From Thermodesulfovibrio yellowstonii DSM 11347 (GTDB lineage Bacteria; Nitrospirota; Thermodesulfovibrionia; Thermodesulfovibrionales; Thermodesulfovibrionaceae), in the NCBI RefSeq assembly GCF_000020985.1, contig NC_011296.1, forward strand, positions 1,292,001 to 1,356,000: a DNA stretch of 64,000 bases, given 5' to 3'. The position numbers and the translations under genes were made by a program. Under the pieces are notes generated by a model. It was not told the origin of the DNA and searched no databases. It saw only the letters and a program-made list of their open reading frames with translations. Each line of letters begins with the position of its first letter. Positions within the stretch are counted from its first letter, which is position 1. Positions 30,207 through 38,036 of the stretch are shown here, in pieces.

Positions 30207-31142
30207 ATGGTTGAAGTTGCTGTTGTAGCAAGTCTTCTTATCGCTTTTGGAATAGGCTCAAATGATGCATCAAATGCTCTTGGTATCTGTATAGGAGCAG
30301 GAATAATAAAACTAAAAAGAGCAATATTTTTATTTGGAATTCTTGTGTTTCTTGGCATTCTTCTGCAGGGGCAAAAAGTCATGAAGACAGTTGGTAAAAA
30401 TATAGTTGATGTAAATATGTCAATTGTTATAGTAGTGCTCGCCATATCTGCCATATTAATAATAATTTCTAACTGGAGAAGACTTCCTCTATCTACTCAT
30501 CAGGTTATTATAGGAAGTCTCATAGGTGCTGCTGTTGCATCTGATAGCGCAGTGAATATTGTATCTATCATAAAAATAGTAGTTTCTTGGATAATATCAC
30601 CTTTTGTGGCAATGGGTTTTTCTTTTCTTTTATATAAAACTCTTGAAAAAACCATCTCAAAGTTCCCATTCTTTCAGATTGAAAAACTTTTAAGAGCATT
30701 CCTAATTTTTAGTGGCATGTTAATCTCTTATAACACTGGTGCCAATGAACTTGCCACCGTGCTCGGTCCTTTGATGCATTCAGGTATAGAAATTAATAAA
30801 ATTCTTTTATTTTCAATTGCTTCAGTTATGGTTTTCTCTGGCGCTATTCTTCTAAGTCATAGAGTTATTGAAACTGTGGGAAAAGGAATCACTACATTAG
30901 ACCCTTACTCTGGCTTTGCTGCTCAATTTGGAGCAGGTGGATGTGTTTTATTTTTTACTTTTCTTGGTATGCCTATATCAACAACTTACTGCATTATTGG
31001 GGGAATAAGCGGAGTTGGACTAACAAAGGGCATTAGTACAGTCAAATTTGGACTTTTGAAAAAAATTGCAATTAATTTTGCAGTTACTCCTTCTTTGGCT
31101 TTTTTATTTGGATATCTTGCTCTTAAATTAATTTATTCCTAA
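30207..31142 (+). CDS. PiT-family inorganic phosphate transporter
   Basis: 311-residue inner-membrane phosphate:cation symporter with about 9-10 hydrophobic segments. Both PiT repeats are seen: GIGSNDASNALG near the N-terminus and YNTGANELATVLGPL in the middle, with STTYCIIGG near the end. AAGGAG precedes the ATG. The 3' end overlaps the convergent hydrogenase protease gene by 15 nt. The DUF47-PiT arrangement supports the call. Confidence 0.9.
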   Translation: MVEVAVVASLLIAFGIGSNDASNALGICIGAGIIKLKRAIFLFGILVFLGILLQGQKVMKTVGKNIVDVNMSIVIVVLAISAILIIISNWRRLPLSTHQVIIGSLIGAAVASDSAVNIVSIIKIVVSWIISPFVAMGFSFLLYKTLEKTISKFPFFQIEKLLRAFLIFSGMLISYNTGANELATVLGPLMHSGIEINKILLFSIASVMVFSGAILLSHRVIETVGKGITTLDPYSGFAAQFGAGGCVLFFTFLGMPISTTYCIIGGISGVGLTKGISTVKFGLLKKIAINFAVTPSLAFLFGYLALKLIYS

Positions 31143-31568
31143 GTATTCCTTTATTTTTGACACAGCCTTTGGAATTGCGTCCTCAACAGAAGGGCTACAC
31201 TGTCTGCTTAATGTTTCCACATCTTCTACTTCTACGCCGATGATTTTAATCTCCTTAGGCATTTCCTCAGGAAACACTGAGTATCCGATTCTTATTATTT
31301 CAAATATGGAAAAATTATGAGTCCCGCTGGCATAAACATCTCCCCAAAACTCAGCATTAAATTCAATAATGCTTCCAGGCTCTTTCCCTGTTTTTACTCC
31401 ATCTACAATTACTGCTTTATCATATCCTAATAATGAATCTATAAGATTAAAACCAATATTTAAAAGCGTGACAGTATCCACTACTCCTTCAAAATATTCA
31501 ACTATTTTTAAACCAACTCCATCATCTTTAAAATTAGGATTTCCGATACCAATAATTACGCTTCTCAT
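31128..31568 (-). CDS. Hydrogenase maturation protease (HycI/HyaD family)
   Basis: 146-residue endopeptidase that removes the C-terminal tail of a NiFe hydrogenase large subunit after nickel insertion. IGIGNPNFKDDGVGLKIVE and AVIVDGVKTG carry the conserved nickel-sensing Asp/Glu residues. It follows mvhA, whose product retains a 29-residue tail after its C-terminal CxxCxxH, so MvhA is the likely substrate. A hairpin separates the two genes. Confidence 0.9.
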   Translation of the reverse strand: MRSVIIGIGNPNFKDDGVGLKIVEYFEGVVDTVTLLNIGFNLIDSLLGYDKAVIVDGVKTGKEPGSIIEFNAEFWGDVYASGTHNFSIFEIIRIGYSVFPEEMPKEIKIIGVEVEDVETLSRQCSPSVEDAIPKAVSKIKEYLGIN

Positions 31569-31635: not shown

Positions 31636-33105
31636 TTAGGATAATTCGTAGTTTCTGAGGCTTTTTACAAGTTCGCCATGATGGTCTATTATATCAATCC
31701 TCACAGGAATTCTTCCAGGTAATGTATGAGTTGAACATGCAAAGCATAGGTCATATGGACGATAGGCAATTTCAACAAGATTAAGAATTCCCTCATCCAC
31801 CTTTCCATTCTTAATGAAACTCTGTGCTGCTCTCTTTACTGCTATGTTCATTGGACCTTTATTGTGAGTTGTTGCAACAATGAGATTAGCATCTGTAACA
31901 ATACCTTTATCATCGGTTTTATAATGATGAATCAGTACACCTCTCGCAGCTTCAACAATTCCTACACCTTCACCAACTGGAGTGCCAAGTTCCTGACGAA
32001 CGTTAGGGTCTGTAATGCTTTCATCGGAAGCAATCTTCTTAACTGTTTCTGCAGCATGCATTAACTCTATTGCTCTTGTCCAATGATATGCCAATGTGTG
32101 GTGAACTGGTTTTCCACCAAAAGCTGCAAGCATCTTTTCATAGGCTTCCTGTGCAAGGGGTGTATCAAATCCGCTTCCCACATTAAATCTTGCAAGTGGT
32201 CCTACGCTATAAATGCTTGTGCCATCACCATCAACAAGACCATTCCAACCAAGCTTCTTTAAATAGGGTGCTTTCTGATAGCTCCATGGTAATGTTCTTT
32301 CAGCAATATAATCTAAATACTGGATTCCCTTGAATCTGCCTAATTCATTTCCTTTTGTATCAACAATTTTCTGTGTTCCATCGTAATATGTAACCTTATC
32401 ATTCTCATCAACTGTTCCTATATAATTTGTTACTACTTTGTATACATCTCCAGTTACAAGAGCCATGTATTCTTTGTTCTGTAATACAACTTTATCAAAA
32501 ACATCTAAGGTTAATTTTGCAAGCTCTATGCAGTCATCAGCACAGGCAAGAATTTCTTTTCTTTCTTCCTCTGTAATTCTCTTTGACCATCCACCTGGCA
32601 ATGCAGCAACTGGATGACTTGGCCTCCCAGAGGTTAGTTCAAAAATTTTAACTGCTGAATATCTTTTCTTTAGGACAAGCTTTCCAACATCTGCTCCGAC
32701 TTTAAGAACAAGACCTACGAGATTTCTCTCAGCAGGTGATGCAGTGGGACCACATACAAAATCTGGAAAACCAAGTGCATAAAGAATACCTGTATGGTCT
32801 TCTACATAATGAGCATTATAGAAAAGTTCTCTAATTTTCTTAGCTGTTGGTGTGGGTTCTACACCGTAAACTGCATCGGCAGCCTTCACTGAGGCTGTAT
32901 AATGCACACCCCTTCAAACTCCGCATATGGTGCTTACAGTTCGGGGAACCTCTTCAATAGGCATTCCTATCAGAAACTTTTCATAACCCATGAATTCAAC
33001 AACCTGCATAAATGCATTATCAACATTTCCCTGTTCATCAAGGAAGATTGTTATTTTTCCATGGCCCTCAAGCCTTGTCATCGGATTAATCTCAATTTTC
33101 TTCAT
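31636..33105 (-). CDS. mvhA: MvhA-type NiFe hydrogenase large subunit with in-frame TGA (Sec64)
   Basis: Catalytic subunit of the F420-non-reducing hydrogenase that feeds HdrABC with electrons from H2. Read through TGA at 32916-32914, the 489-residue protein is continuous and family-like on both sides: INPMTRLEGHGK at the start, ICGV-U-RGVHYTAS at 60-72, YDLCFACSTH at the end. The N-terminal nickel motif is thus C61-G-V-U64-R-G-V-H68; C-terminal C454 and C457 are both cysteine. Start MKKIEINPMT is preferred to an ATG 51 nt upstream because GGGGGGAAAGGG precedes it and the family begins there. A SECIS-like hairpin follows the TGA. A nonsense mutation is the alternative, but location, hairpin and the parallel case in hdrA argue for selenocysteine. 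Confidence 0.88.
32872..32906 (-). promoter_or_regulatory. Putative bacterial SECIS hairpin in mvhA
   Basis: On the minus strand TGCAT (32906-32902) pairs with ATGCA (32876-32872), and CAGCCT pairs with AGGCTG above a small internal loop. The apical loop CAGTGA begins 22 nt after the TGA. A further C-G pair would leave an AGT loop with G in second position, matching the bacterial SECIS rule as I recall it. Confidence 0.65.
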
Positions 33106-33159: not shown

Positions 33160-34116
33160 TTAGCCCTTTAATCTTTTATAAGGAAAAGAACTTGGCAGCG
33201 TGTATCTGTAAAAGAGATGAACCGGGTCAGGAATCTGGTCAACAAGTTCTTCATTATCAAGCATACTTGCAATAGCACTGATTGCACGTAAGCTATAATC
33301 TTTAACTCCAGGAATTGGTCCACCACAACCTCTACAAGGTATGTTTGCTGCTGGGCATTTAGCTCCACAGTCTCCCTGTGTTACAGGACCTAAACAGAGA
33401 TATCCCTCCTCAAGAAGGCAACCATCTTCACTTGGTGCGCCATCAATTGTTCTTTTCACTTCAGTTGCCAGTTTCTTTGGTTTACCTTTCAATACAGGGT
33501 TTCTATCACAGACTTCGCATACAGCTTTACCCATTGTAATCCATGAACCAGGAGGAGGAAGCTGTCCAGAAAGTAATGCTGTGAATGCTGCTTTTACGTG
33601 TTCATAATGAGGTGGACAGCCGCCAATATAGTAGTCAACCTTGACTACTTCATCAAGAGGTCTTGCATACATCAAAGTTGGAAGAGTTAACTCATACTTC
33701 CCGTCTACAACACAGGTTGTTTGAGGTAATTCCTTGTTAGGATTGTCAGTGCTGAATGTATTCACATAAGCCTTGTCAAGAAGTTCATCTGTTGTATGCA
33801 AGTTAACAAGTCCTTTTATACCACCACATGCAGCGCAGATTCCAAAAGCTATTAAAACTTTACATTTATTTCTCAAAACCTTTGCAATGTGCTCATGCTC
33901 TGAGTTTCTAACATTTCCTGTAAAAAGTCCTACATCAATTGAGCCATCTGGCATGGCTTCTAAGTCTTTATATTTAACATCCGCCACTGTCGGTGCCCAA
34001 AATACGATATCTACGGCAAGGGCAACATCTACCAGCATTTCTGATATATCTACTACTGCTATATCACAGCCTCCGCAGCCGCCGGCTAAATAATATGCAA
34101 GCTTAGGTTTGCTCAT
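33160..34116 (-). CDS. mvhG: F420-non-reducing hydrogenase small subunit MvhG
   Basis: 318-residue NiFe hydrogenase small subunit with three predicted [4Fe-4S] clusters relaying electrons from MvhA to MvhD. The proximal-cluster motif is C14-G-G-C17, followed by GICAACGGI and GGCPPHYEHV. The C-terminal cysteine-rich GDCGAKCPAANIPCRGCGGP supplies the medial and distal clusters. No Tat signal is present, so the enzyme is cytosolic. It overlaps mvhD by 4 nt. Confidence 0.94.
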   Translation of the reverse strand: MSKPKLAYYLAGGCGGCDIAVVDISEMLVDVALAVDIVFWAPTVADVKYKDLEAMPDGSIDVGLFTGNVRNSEHEHIAKVLRNKCKVLIAFGICAACGGIKGLVNLHTTDELLDKAYVNTFSTDNPNKELPQTTCVVDGKYELTLPTLMYARPLDEVVKVDYYIGGCPPHYEHVKAAFTALLSGQLPPPGSWITMGKAVCEVCDRNPVLKGKPKKLATEVKRTIDGAPSEDGCLLEEGYLCLGPVTQGDCGAKCPAANIPCRGCGGPIPGVKDYSLRAISAIASMLDNEELVDQIPDPVHLFYRYTLPSSFPYKRLKG

Positions 34117-34529
34117 TGTGCCCCTCCTTTCATTGGATTTGGTCCAAGTTCTCTAATTCTGGCATCAAAAGCGGTCATAGACTCAGCAAACTTTTTACCT
34201 TCACTTCCAGAAATCCATTCAAGCTGAACTCTATCTGGCTCAACTCCCAGGTCAGTAAGAACTCTTTTTAGAAGTTTAAATCTTCTTATTGCCTTGTAAT
34301 TACCTTCTTTATAGTGACAATCACCAAAGTGGCATCCACCAACAAATACTCCATCAGCTCCTCTTTTAAGGGCTTCTGCAATAAATTCAGGTTCAACTCT
34401 TCCGCTACAGGGCACTCTCACTATATGCACCGTGGGCGGATAGGAATAACGCAAGCTTCCTGCCAGGTCTGCTCCTGCATAAGTACACCAATGGCAGGCA
34501 ATAACAATGAGTCTTGGCTCCCATGCCAT
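34113..34529 (-). CDS. mvhD: MvhD, [2Fe-2S] linker between hydrogenase and Hdr
   Basis: 138-residue protein that carries electrons from MvhAG to HdrA. Cysteines C12, C15, C41, C66 and C71 (CHWC, PCSGR, GGCHFGDCHY) match the MvhD/FrhD cluster-binding pattern. It lies 1 nt after hdrB and overlaps mvhG by 4 nt. No TGA interrupts it, unlike the selenocysteine forms known in some methanogens. Confidence 0.94.
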   Translation of the reverse strand: MAWEPRLIVIACHWCTYAGADLAGSLRYSYPPTVHIVRVPCSGRVEPEFIAEALKRGADGVFVGGCHFGDCHYKEGNYKAIRRFKLLKRVLTDLGVEPDRVQLEWISGSEGKKFAESMTAFDARIRELGPNPMKGGAQ

Positions 34530-34530
34530 A

Positions 34531-35427
34531 TTAATTCCCTCCTTTTATCTTAGTTATTACTCCATTCAATGGAATTGATGCCATTGCTGTGGCTTTTTCC
34601 ACATCTGCACCTAAAGCAATTGCTGTAATTTGAGCAAGATGAAGAGCAGGAATCTTATAATTTAATTTCTTCTGCTCAACTAAAAGTGCCTGTCCTGCAT
34701 CAAACTGAAGAAGACAGGAACTACAGCCAATTACTGTAACATCTGGGTCTATTTCTTCTTTTATTACATCAAGTTTCTTTTTAAACAAAGCAAGAGATTT
34801 TTCAGATGCTGTTGACCTTAATGCACCCATTCCACAGCAATCTGTTATGGTGCTATAATGAGGTGCAACCCCGCCCATGGCTTCACATAGTTGTCTTAGT
34901 CTTGTTGGGAAAAAGGTGTTATCTTCATTAGTTGGATATGCTCTGCTTGGCCAAAGATTGTGACATCCTGTCTGTACAGCACATTTTAATCCATTGAGAT
35001 TATATTTTATCTTAGACTTAAGATTATCAGGTCCTACATCTTCATAAAGTAAATTAATAAAATTCCATACTTTTGTTGTACCCTTATATTCTTTGCCTAC
35101 TTTGGCAAGAATTTTATTAACCTGTTCCTTTATTTCTGGATGTTTTTCCATATGATATCTTGCTTCATTTAGGGAACCGTAACAGGAACCACAACCTGTA
35201 ACTATGTCAACCCCTTTTTCCTCTGCAATGGTCAGATTCCATGCTGATGCCGCTGCCCAGCCTACTAAATCAAGTGATGGCATTGTTCCAAAAGCAGGAC
35301 AGCAGGTAGCTCCTTCAAGCTCTACTATTTCATATCCGAGCTCATTGAGAAGAAATCTTGCAGAGTATTCTACATCTGGTCTATTAAAAGGTATATTACA
35401 TCCAAGAAAAAATCCTATCTTTTTCAT
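34531..35427 (-). CDS. hdrB: Heterodisulfide reductase-like subunit HdrB
   Basis: 298-residue subunit with two complete CCG domains that each bind a noncubane [4Fe-4S] cluster. The first has C10, C42-C43, C79 and C82; the second has C155, C197-C198, C235 and C238. In methanogens this is the site of CoM-S-S-CoB reduction. Bacteria lack that substrate, so a different disulfide or low-potential acceptor is expected. DsrC-like persulfide carriers are a common suggestion in sulfate reducers, but nothing in the window identifies the acceptor. Confidence 0.93.
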   Translation of the reverse strand: MKKIGFFLGCNIPFNRPDVEYSARFLLNELGYEIVELEGATCCPAFGTMPSLDLVGWAAASAWNLTIAEEKGVDIVTGCGSCYGSLNEARYHMEKHPEIKEQVNKILAKVGKEYKGTTKVWNFINLLYEDVGPDNLKSKIKYNLNGLKCAVQTGCHNLWPSRAYPTNEDNTFFPTRLRQLCEAMGGVAPHYSTITDCCGMGALRSTASEKSLALFKKKLDVIKEEIDPDVTVIGCSSCLLQFDAGQALLVEQKKLNYKIPALHLAQITAIALGADVEKATAMASIPLNGVITKIKGGN

Positions 35428-35438
35428 TCTTATCCTCC

Positions 35439-35975
35439 TTAGTCAAGCGGAAATGGTGCTATTTCTTCCAGGATTGTATTTCTAAGTACTTCCTGGAACT
35501 TTTTTCTTAACTCTTCATTACTAATAGCTGTTGGTGGTTTCTCTGGCAAACCCGCTTTCTTTCTTCTTTCCTCATATCCTTTTGGATACACTGCATGTCC
35601 AAATCTATAAAGATTTCTTAAACCTTCATATGTATTTGCTGGACATGATTCAACCTTCACTGCTGCTCTTCTAACTGCTTGAATGACTTCATAGGGTTTT
35701 ATATCCATTGGGCAAACTTCTACACAACGATTGCAAGACTGACATCCCCATACAGATGAGTCTTCAAGAAGAATATCTCTTAAGCCAAGATTGGCTGCAT
35801 GAATTATTCTTTTGATGAAAAATTCTAAACCAGCTAAAGCCATTGGACATGTGGATGCACATTTTCCGCACTGTATGCACTCTCTAAGTTCATCTGCTCC
35901 TAATCCTTCAAGCTCTTTTACAAAACTTTCATCTGCTTGGGTAAGGTCAATTACATTTACGCCACCCTCTTCCAT
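35439..35975 (-). CDS. hdrC: Heterodisulfide reductase-like subunit HdrC
   Basis: 178-residue ferredoxin-like subunit with two [4Fe-4S] motifs: C33, C36, C39, C43 (ECIQCGKCASTCP) and C78, C81, C84, C88 (GCQSCNRCVEVCP). It passes electrons from HdrA to HdrB. No membrane helices are seen, so this is the soluble HdrC type. It lies between hdrA and hdrB with AGGAGG before the ATG. Confidence 0.94.
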   Translation of the reverse strand: MEEGGVNVIDLTQADESFVKELEGLGADELRECIQCGKCASTCPMALAGLEFFIKRIIHAANLGLRDILLEDSSVWGCQSCNRCVEVCPMDIKPYEVIQAVRRAAVKVESCPANTYEGLRNLYRFGHAVYPKGYEERRKKAGLPEKPPTAISNEELRKKFQEVLRNTILEEIAPFPLD

Positions 35976-35994: not shown

Positions 35995-37995
35995 TTATGC
36001 CTCTGTTAATGCATCAATCTGTGCCATTATTTGTTCAGTTGTAAAGCCGTTGAATTTAATAGCTCTTGATGGACATGCACTGGCACAGACTCCACAACCT
36101 GCACAGAGTGCTGGTTCAATATATGCCTTTTCTTTGCCTTTGTATTCTTCAATTCTTATAGCGCTGTATGGACAAAGTGGTACACAAACACCGCAGCTAC
36201 TACATTTATCTCTATCAACCTCAGAAACTATTGCTTCAAATTTAATTTTACCAGGAATTATTAAAGCTGCTGTCGCTGCCGCAGCTGCTCTGGACTGAGC
36301 AATTGATTCAGGAATATCTTTCGGTCCCTGTACACATCCTGCAATAAATACACCCCTTGCTGAAGTCTCAACAGGATAGAGTTTTGTATGGACTTCCCTT
36401 AGGAATCCTTCTCTACCGCAAGTTGCACTGAACATTCTTCCAAGTTCATCAACACCATCAGGAGGTTCAATAGCAGTTGCAAGAACAACTAAATCAGCAT
36501 CAACTTCAACAGGCGAACAAAGATCAACATCAAAGCCTCTTACTCTGAGTTTTCCATTAGGTTTCACATCAACTGCTGATACTCTTCCACCTCTTATAAT
36601 TTTTGCTCCAAGTTCTCTTGTATAAACATAGAACTCTTCAAAATCTTTACCTGCTGTTCTAACATCAATAAAGAAAAGATAAAGTTTTATATCAGGATAC
36701 TTTTCTTTAAGAATTCTTGCGTGTTTAAGCATGTACATACAGCATACTTTTGAACAGTATCTATGATATCTTTCATCTCTACTTCCTACACAGGAGATCA
36801 TTGCAATTGTCTTGGGTTTTGTGCCATCTGATGGTCTCTTTAATTCACCACCTGTTGGTCCTGTTGCAGAGAGTATTCTTTCAAATTCCATAGAGGTTAT
36901 AACATCTGGACAGTGAGGTGAGTATTCTTTAAAGTGAACCTTAGACATTGGCTTGAAGCCTGTAGCAATGATAACTGCTCCAACTTTAAGATTTATATAT
37001 TCATCCTTGTCATCAAATTTTATTGCATCAGCTGGGCATCCCTGTATTCCCTTTGGTGGAATACCTTTTTTACATATTTCACAAGCGGGTTTACCTGTTT
37101 TTTTCATTGATTTGAAGTATAAGCAATTTGGCTCATCTATAACTGCTTTTTTGGGAACAGCCTGAGGATATTCAATATAAGCTGCTCTTCTCTGATTTAA
37201 TCCCATATTATATTCATTCGGGACTCTTGATGGACAAATTTCTGTGCAAACACCGCAACCTATGCATTTATCCCAATCAATATATTTTGCTTTTTTCTTT
37301 ATGCGAATATCAAAATTACCAACATATCCTTTAACATCATCTACTTCTGCATAGGTAATAAGCTCTATATTTGGATGCTGGGCGACCTCGCCCGTCTTAG
37401 GTGTGAGTATTCAAGCCGAACAATCCATCGTAGGGAAGGTTTTATCAATTTTTGACATATTACCGCCAATTGACGGCTGTCTTTCTACAAGATAGACCTT
37501 CAGCCCCATATTCGCAAGGTCAAGGGCTGCGAACATTCCTGCTATTCCACCACCAATGACCAAAACGGATTTTTCCATATCTCCATAGCGATCTTCAAGA
37601 GGCTCATTAAGTCTTACTTTAGCAACAGCGCTTCTTATAAGTCTTTTTGCTTTTTCAAGAGCACCTTCTTTATTATGCCAGTGTGGCCAGCTATCTTGGT
37701 CTCTGATATTAGCCATTTCCAAAAGATAGCCATTAAGTCCTGCGTCTTCAACTGCTTTTTTAAAGATAGGACCGTGTGTTCTTGGTGTACATGCTGCAAC
37801 CACTACACGGTCTACTGCTCCACTTTTAATATCTTGTTTAATTAAATCCTGCCCTGGATCAGAACACATAAAAACATAATTTCTAACTAATGCAACATCT
37901 GGAAGTGTTTCAACATACTTTTTCAGTGCTTCAATGTCAATGGCGCCTTTGATGTTCTCTCCACAGTGGCACAGATAAACCCCTACTTTTGCCAT
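35995..37995 (-). CDS. hdrA: HdrA, flavin-based bifurcating subunit with in-frame TGA (Sec195)
   Basis: Read through TGA at 37413-37411, the gene gives a continuous 666-residue HdrA. In order: N-terminal CHCGENIKG region; FAD site VIGGGIAG (147-154); PTMDCSA-U195-ILTPK; ferredoxin motif C244, C247, C250, C254; then two C-terminal ferredoxin motifs (CSSCGVCVPLCP and CAGCGVCASACP). The TGA occupies a cysteine that is selenocysteine in some methanogen HdrA proteins. Start MAKVGVYLCHCG at 37995 follows GGAGG. A hairpin with an AGGT loop follows the TGA. The FAD bifurcates MvhD electrons to ferredoxin and HdrBC. A split pseudogene is the alternative, but no other lesion is seen. Confidence 0.92.
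37380..37393 (-). promoter_or_regulatory. Putative bacterial SECIS hairpin in hdrA
   Basis: Minus strand GGGCG-AGGT-CGCCC, a perfect 5-bp GC stem. The loop begins 22 nt after the TGA. The AGGT loop matches the AGGTCT loop of the E. coli fdhF SECIS, which SelB recognises. Confidence 0.75.
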
Positions 37996-38036
37996 TTTAA
38001 GCCCTCCTTTGAATGGATTTTTATTGTGGTTTACCC

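Follow-up and report, generated by a model that had tools for sequence, protein, structure and literature searches.

Background

The [NiFeSe] hydrogenases of Desulfomicrobium baculatum and D. vulgaris (HysA) and the methanogen proteins VhuU and FruA carry a UGA-encoded selenocysteine (Sec) among their four nickel ligands, where Sec is the first residue of the C-terminal UxxC motif and serves as the terminal ligand. In some methanogens, the large subunit is split into separate VhuA and VhuU polypeptides. Current mechanistic ideas on selenium in hydrogenases, such as a proton relay at the terminal ligand and protection from O2, rest on this C-terminal position, and two reviews of prokaryotic selenoproteins (2022 and 2026) describe only the C-terminal UxxC for the MvhA, Frh and Vhu large subunits. 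The proton relay passes through the non-bridging cysteine, which is the Sec position of the classical [NiFeSe] enzymes (PMC11212049); in D. gigas, Cys530 is the terminal and Cys533 a bridging ligand (PMC3325256).

The group 3c MvhA of Methanothermococcus thermolithotrophicus (5ODC), encoded with the operon hdrACB-mvhDGA and a maturation protease, shares sequence, fold and gene neighbourhood with the protein considered here and differs from it in carrying Cys at position 64. Cys-to-Sec variants of Hyd-1 were reportedly described by Evans et al. in 2021. Cys-to-Sec variants are also available for E. coli Hyd-2 at residues 61, 64, 546 and 549, and the one in which Sec replaces the counterpart of C64 is active (PMC11212049); these variants are artificial, were obtained in low yield and belong to group 1, whereas the case reported below is natural, conserved and evolutionarily repeated.

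The sequence analysed (hereafter the window) is a stretch of 64,000 nucleotides, positions 1292001-1356000 of the single-contig genome (2,003,803 bases) of Thermodesulfovibrio yellowstonii, a heat-loving bacterium that reduces sulfate. The best explanation of its mvhA gene as a whole, held with a probability of about 0.9, is a group 3c MvhA in which UGA64 would be translated as Sec by SelA, SelB, SelC and SelD with the help of a downstream hairpin, and in which Sec64 would be a bridge between nickel and iron. The literature searched, which left subscription papers mostly uncovered, contained no report of a hydrogenase with a naturally occurring Sec in its N-terminal motif. The sequence-only reading of the window had taken a bridging selenolate to be new; this holds insofar as only the C-terminal UxxC appears in that literature, but priority remains unproven and the engineered Hyd-2 variant is an artificial precedent (PMC11212049).

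The mvhA locus and its reading frame

The features of the operon and of mvhA are as follows.

31128-31568, minus strand: hydrogenase maturation protease, the gene after mvhA in the operon and a conserved neighbour (TIGR00072, 86.1 bits, above the cut-off)
31636-33105, minus strand: mvhA, [NiFe] hydrogenase large subunit, 489 aa with TGA64 read as Sec
31735-31746, minus strand: C-terminal nickel motif C454-x-x-C457, codons TGC (454) and TGT (457)
32880-32897, minus strand: SECIS-like hairpin with a stem of 6 bp and a loop of 6 nt (32891-32886), the loop being separated from the TGA by 22 nt
32914-32916, minus strand: in-frame TGA at codon 64 (Sec), which specifies the second ligand of the CxxU nickel motif near the N-terminus
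33160-34116, minus strand: mvhG, small subunit (VhuG profile, 207 bits)
34113-34529, minus strand: mvhD, iron-sulfur subunit (VhuD profile, 127 bits), without an in-frame TGA
34531-35427, minus strand: hdrB (profile search)
35439-35975, minus strand: hdrC (profile search)
35995-38001, minus strand: hdrA, with the second in-frame TGA of the operon (U197, 37413-37411, the known HdrA Sec site)

The mvhA frame (33105-31636) is open over 489 codons except for a single in-frame stop, TGA64, which lies within ..TVSTICGV-U-RGVHYTAS.. and gives the N-terminal motif I-C61-G-V-U64-R. The C-terminal motif, RPYDLCFACSTH, located in the stretch RPYDLC454FAC457STH, has both cysteines intact. A lone TGA interrupting an otherwise intact MvhA, retention of both C-terminal cysteines and a hairpin with its loop starting 22 nt after the stop had been put forward by the sequence-only reading, and all three were recovered when the frame was read again, the loop starting at 32891.

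Assignment to group 3c is supported by a match to 5odc_F (E 1.7e-100), by the VhuA profile (373 bits) and by an AF2 model (mean pLDDT 81.7) with TM scores of 0.85/0.93 against 5odc_F. The ligand motifs at both ends and the MvhG, MvhD and Hdr neighbours fit this group as well, with the N-terminal motif being CxxU and not CxxC. The protein does not qualify as a classical [NiFeSe] or VhuU protein, in which Sec would open the C-terminal ligand motif, codon 454 being TGC. The nearest MvhA relatives of the gene belong to Thermodesulfovibrio, and the gene order hdrA-hdrC-hdrB-mvhD-mvhG-mvhA-maturation protease shows an intact operon.

HdrA resembles the window MvhA in being encoded by the same operon with a UGA followed by a hairpin, and differs in belonging to a known selenoprotein family and in that its Sec is no hydrogenase ligand. 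The SECIS-like hairpin after TGA197 (GGGCG-AGGU-CGCCC) lies at the same distance as that of mvhA and serves as an internal positive control. For annotators, the implication is that a UGA in the N-terminal motif of a hydrogenase is real, such genes being currently split; gene finders would split hdrA at TGA197 as well. A phage search gave only weak and irrelevant matches.

Conservation of the in-frame TGA

Taken by itself, a lone stop in a single genome could equally be a sequencing error or the mark of a decaying pseudogene, and decay was named in the sequence-only reading as an outcome that would refute it, with an alignment of homologues as a check. The alignment recovered TGA64 in 18 distinct homologues, which come from independently assembled genomes and represent several lineages: 12 from Thermodesulfovibrio and its near kin, three from another Nitrospirota family, two Thermodesulfobacterium-like and one further of Desulfobacterota type. 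Among 396 Nitrospirota genomes, ten genes with TGA64 (the window's included) show 86-100% identity, and two U64 genes of the second family show about 49%; a third U64 gene of that family, in genome G400, came from a further search, and the three together span 47-49%. A survey of 395 genomes from the phylum to which a Desulfoplanes MAG belongs added the two Thermodesulfobacterium-like genes (79%) and the one further gene (53%), all with TGA64. Codon 64 is TGC or TGT in the other homologues read, so that an in-frame UGA is paired with Cys, in 18 U64 versus 108 Cys64 sequences, where such pairing in at least two different sequences is asked of a bacterial selenoprotein. Purifying selection continues past the TGA (dN/dS 0.02-0.07), and the operon and the maturation protease gene are intact. 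No sign of decay was encountered, and error or pseudogene formation is ruled out with near certainty by the presence of the same TGA64 in independent assemblies.

Evidence for selenocysteine insertion

The genome carries selA, together with selB (385 bits) and tRNA-Sec (selC, 72.6 bits), both above the curated cut-offs, and selD (376 bits, above the cut-off) with an in-frame TGA of its own; all four sel genes that the sequence-only reading had proposed to look for are present. Both selB and tRNA-Sec exceed the cut-off in 12 of the 12 U64 genomes tested, and tRNA-Sec was detected in the other four U64 genomes. The selD gene (348575-349492 of the genome; L097, L131) is itself a selenoprotein gene, with the TGA in the context VKAAG-U-AAKIG. 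In one genome of the same genus (G205), tRNA-Sec is present, with no MvhA at the threshold and no selB over the cut-off; this genome may be incomplete or may be losing the use of Sec.

The existence of this machinery bears on the possibility that UGA64 is read as a standard amino acid, either as Trp by a near-cognate tRNA or as Cys through mischarged tRNA-Sec, and that the protein contains no selenium. Such decoding cannot be excluded from DNA, and cells short of selenium may, by inference, insert Cys. However, TGA ends 12 of the window's 42 long open frames and is therefore a normal stop of the standard code, Trp would destroy the ligand, the complete sel machinery and a SECIS-like hairpin are at hand, and in this genome known Sec sites are encoded by TGA in both hdrA and selD. 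Decoding without selenium is accordingly regarded as highly improbable.

The window hairpin, CAGCCU-CAGUGA-AGGCUG, starts 17 nt after TGA64; in the comparison of the whole set the hairpin starts at nucleotide 20-21 after TGA64. A stem of such strength is found downstream of codon 64 in all 18 U64 sequences versus 23% of the Cys64 sequences. Of all seven-codon windows along the 12 Thermodesulfovibrio-type U64 genes, the one at codons 69-75 shows the lowest synonymous variation (0.091 versus a gene mean of 0.415), whereas near Cys64 relatives lack such constraint (0.60 for codons 71-77, gene mean 0.53). The alignment of the stem does not include the three U64 genes from the second Nitrospirota family, in which the stem is displaced by one base; it contains one compensatory change from A-U to G-C; 90 of 90 pair cells are standard, and the pattern is destroyed when the partner is slid.

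The published model of bacterial SECIS elements demands a loop of 3-9 nt, a stem of 4-16 bp, a UGA-to-loop distance of 16-37 nt and a minimum free energy of at most -7.5 kcal/mol (PMC13188914), and the window hairpin fits this geometry (loop 6, stem 6, spacing 22, -7.8 kcal/mol). The first G of its loop, CAGUGA, is at position 3 and not at positions 1-2 as in the model, unless C26 and G30 pair; the loops CGGCGA, CGUUGA, CGGGUA and AGUUAA of other U64 genes satisfy the rule of a G in the first two positions. A scan of the region with Rfam gave no SECIS match, and the Rfam model SECIS_1 had no match in the window genome, nor in any control genome, which makes the latter result uninformative. The SECIS check suggested by the sequence-only reading came out in its favour, with a constrained SECIS-like hairpin in place. 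Since competing structures appear in folds of 60 nt in several U64 genes, the local hairpin was judged by synonymous constraint, position and comparison. The same hairpin is kept in some Cys64 genes, namely two paralogues of U64 genes (L172, L173) and a gene of genome G130 (L029/L090), all with TGT; therefore, the hairpin alone is no proof of Sec. Perhaps the hairpins of Cys64 genes are remnants of a reversal from Sec to Cys or of gene conversion, and remnant SECIS structures in Cys homologues are on record (PMC1794560).

The hairpin and the constraint on its codons also have to be accounted for if the TGA ends a peptide of 63 residues and translation restarts beyond it, yielding a split large subunit like the VhuA and VhuU of methanogens. 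Split subunits of this kind are known, a separate VhuU model exists, and the window has a GTG shortly after the TGA, at codon 67. Yet codon 67, the only start-like codon nearby, varies between GTG, GTA and GTT from one U64 gene to another, so a start at this codon is not conserved. A restart would also lose the ligand, at the exact position where homologues have Cys, and it would leave both hairpin and constraint unexplained; a restart is scarcely credible. Insertion of Sec at codon 64 is strongly supported by these comparisons of genes and genomes, although direct protein evidence is lacking. UGA64 would be decoded as selenocysteine by SelA, SelB, SelC and SelD, directed by the hairpin just downstream, to produce Cys61-x-x-Sec64.

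Inferred coordination and possible function

In a gap-free alignment, residue 64 falls on C64, the second N-terminal cysteine of the 5ODC MvhA. In D. gigas the second N-terminal cysteine (Cys68) is said to be the other bridging ligand, according to Volbeda et al. in 1995. A bridging selenolate is expected at Sec64 because of this alignment and the ligand roles in D. gigas. The sequence-only reading had placed residue 64 between nickel and iron by alignment to the ligand motif, and the position is supported; coordination itself is inferred from homology to 5ODC and D. gigas, according to which residue 64 should be a Ni-Fe bridging ligand. In the proposed arrangement, Sec64 would substitute for the N-terminal bridging cysteine, the nickel ligands would be three Cys and one selenolate, and the two metals would share a selenolate bridge (Sec64) and a thiolate bridge (Cys457). 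Cys454, which lies on the proton relay as the terminal ligand and corresponds to the Sec of classical [NiFeSe] enzymes, would remain a cysteine.

Sec64 might be inserted and yet form no Ni-Fe bridge in the mature enzyme, for instance if it were displaced or swapped in coordination; the structures solved so far offer no example of Sec here, and a ligand rearrangement is known for an oxidised group 3 hydrogenase (PMC10214449). Against this stand the gap-free alignment with a solved MvhA, the close fold match to 5odc_F and the processing and activity of the engineered Hyd-2 with Sec64 (PMC11212049), and a non-bridging Sec64 is considered very unlikely. The Hyd-2 enzyme with Sec engineered at position 64 is active in H2 oxidation (PMC11212049), and the bridging arrangement preferred here is therefore chemically viable.

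The benefit of such a bridge can be addressed from chemistry only, and the support is weak. The sequence-only reading had suggested that O2 tolerance, H2 affinity or proton transfer could be altered, which is so far a proposal without proof. Sec64 would not replace the Cys454/Glu proton relay; with the relay presumed to run through Cys454, the main effect is expected, by inference, on resistance to oxidation and on tuning of the Ni-Fe redox chemistry. Reversible sulfoxygenation of bridging cysteines has been described in a group 3 enzyme (PMC12596923). It is a tentative suggestion, somewhat less likely to be right than wrong, that the selenolate mainly keeps the bridging ligand from being oxidised irreversibly and adjusts the redox and hydride chemistry of Ni-Fe. 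A natural bridging-Sec enzyme in several lineages would offer a direct test of the effects of selenium as such versus those of the terminal position, and since cultured strains of the genus exist, it should be possible to purify the enzyme.

Distribution and evolution

In a tree of 109 MvhA sequences, U64 requires five changes, at least four of which are forced by well-supported (starred) branches. U64 therefore appears, on the evidence of the tree, to have been gained or lost repeatedly, and the tree alone cannot separate gain from loss. A natural and unreported class, in which Sec is the N-terminal Ni-Fe bridge, is quite likely to have arisen about three to four times among group 3c hydrogenases, in bacteria of Nitrospirota and Desulfobacterota type, apart from the class with C-terminal Sec. 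It would represent a second natural way of wiring selenium into the [NiFe] catalyst, seemingly tried more than once.

A separate MvhA clade of 34 distinct sequences has Cys at 64 and carries its TGA at the UxxC site known from VhuU-like proteins (codon 454), and is placed apart from U64 in the tree. The hairpin after this TGA, exemplified by ACCGCC-UGGAC-GGCGGU, starts at nucleotide 18-21 in nearly all of the C-terminal-Sec relatives, a spacing equal to that seen after TGA64. No gene with both Sec64 and Sec454 was present among the sequences read. A large bacterial clade of MvhA (L130, L136-L169; phylum of G404) has DPUxSC at the C-terminal motif, and Cys at 64, in genes that are not split.

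The relatives L046, L047 and L049 have Cys at the HdrA and MvhA sites alike. A second U64 lineage (L063/L064, 1991-7318) has the gene order mvhG-mvhA-protease-hdrA-mvhD and Cys at the HdrA site; therefore, Sec64 is independent of Sec in HdrA.

Two genomes contain two MvhA paralogues each, one with Sec64 and one with Cys64 (L102 and L172 in G435, L103 and L173 in G472). The paralogues are nearly identical near the hairpin, and such near-identity of the surroundings of L172 and L173 within a genome suggests either gene conversion or a very recent switch between Sec and Cys. These pairs resemble the Vhu/Vhc pairs of methanococci.
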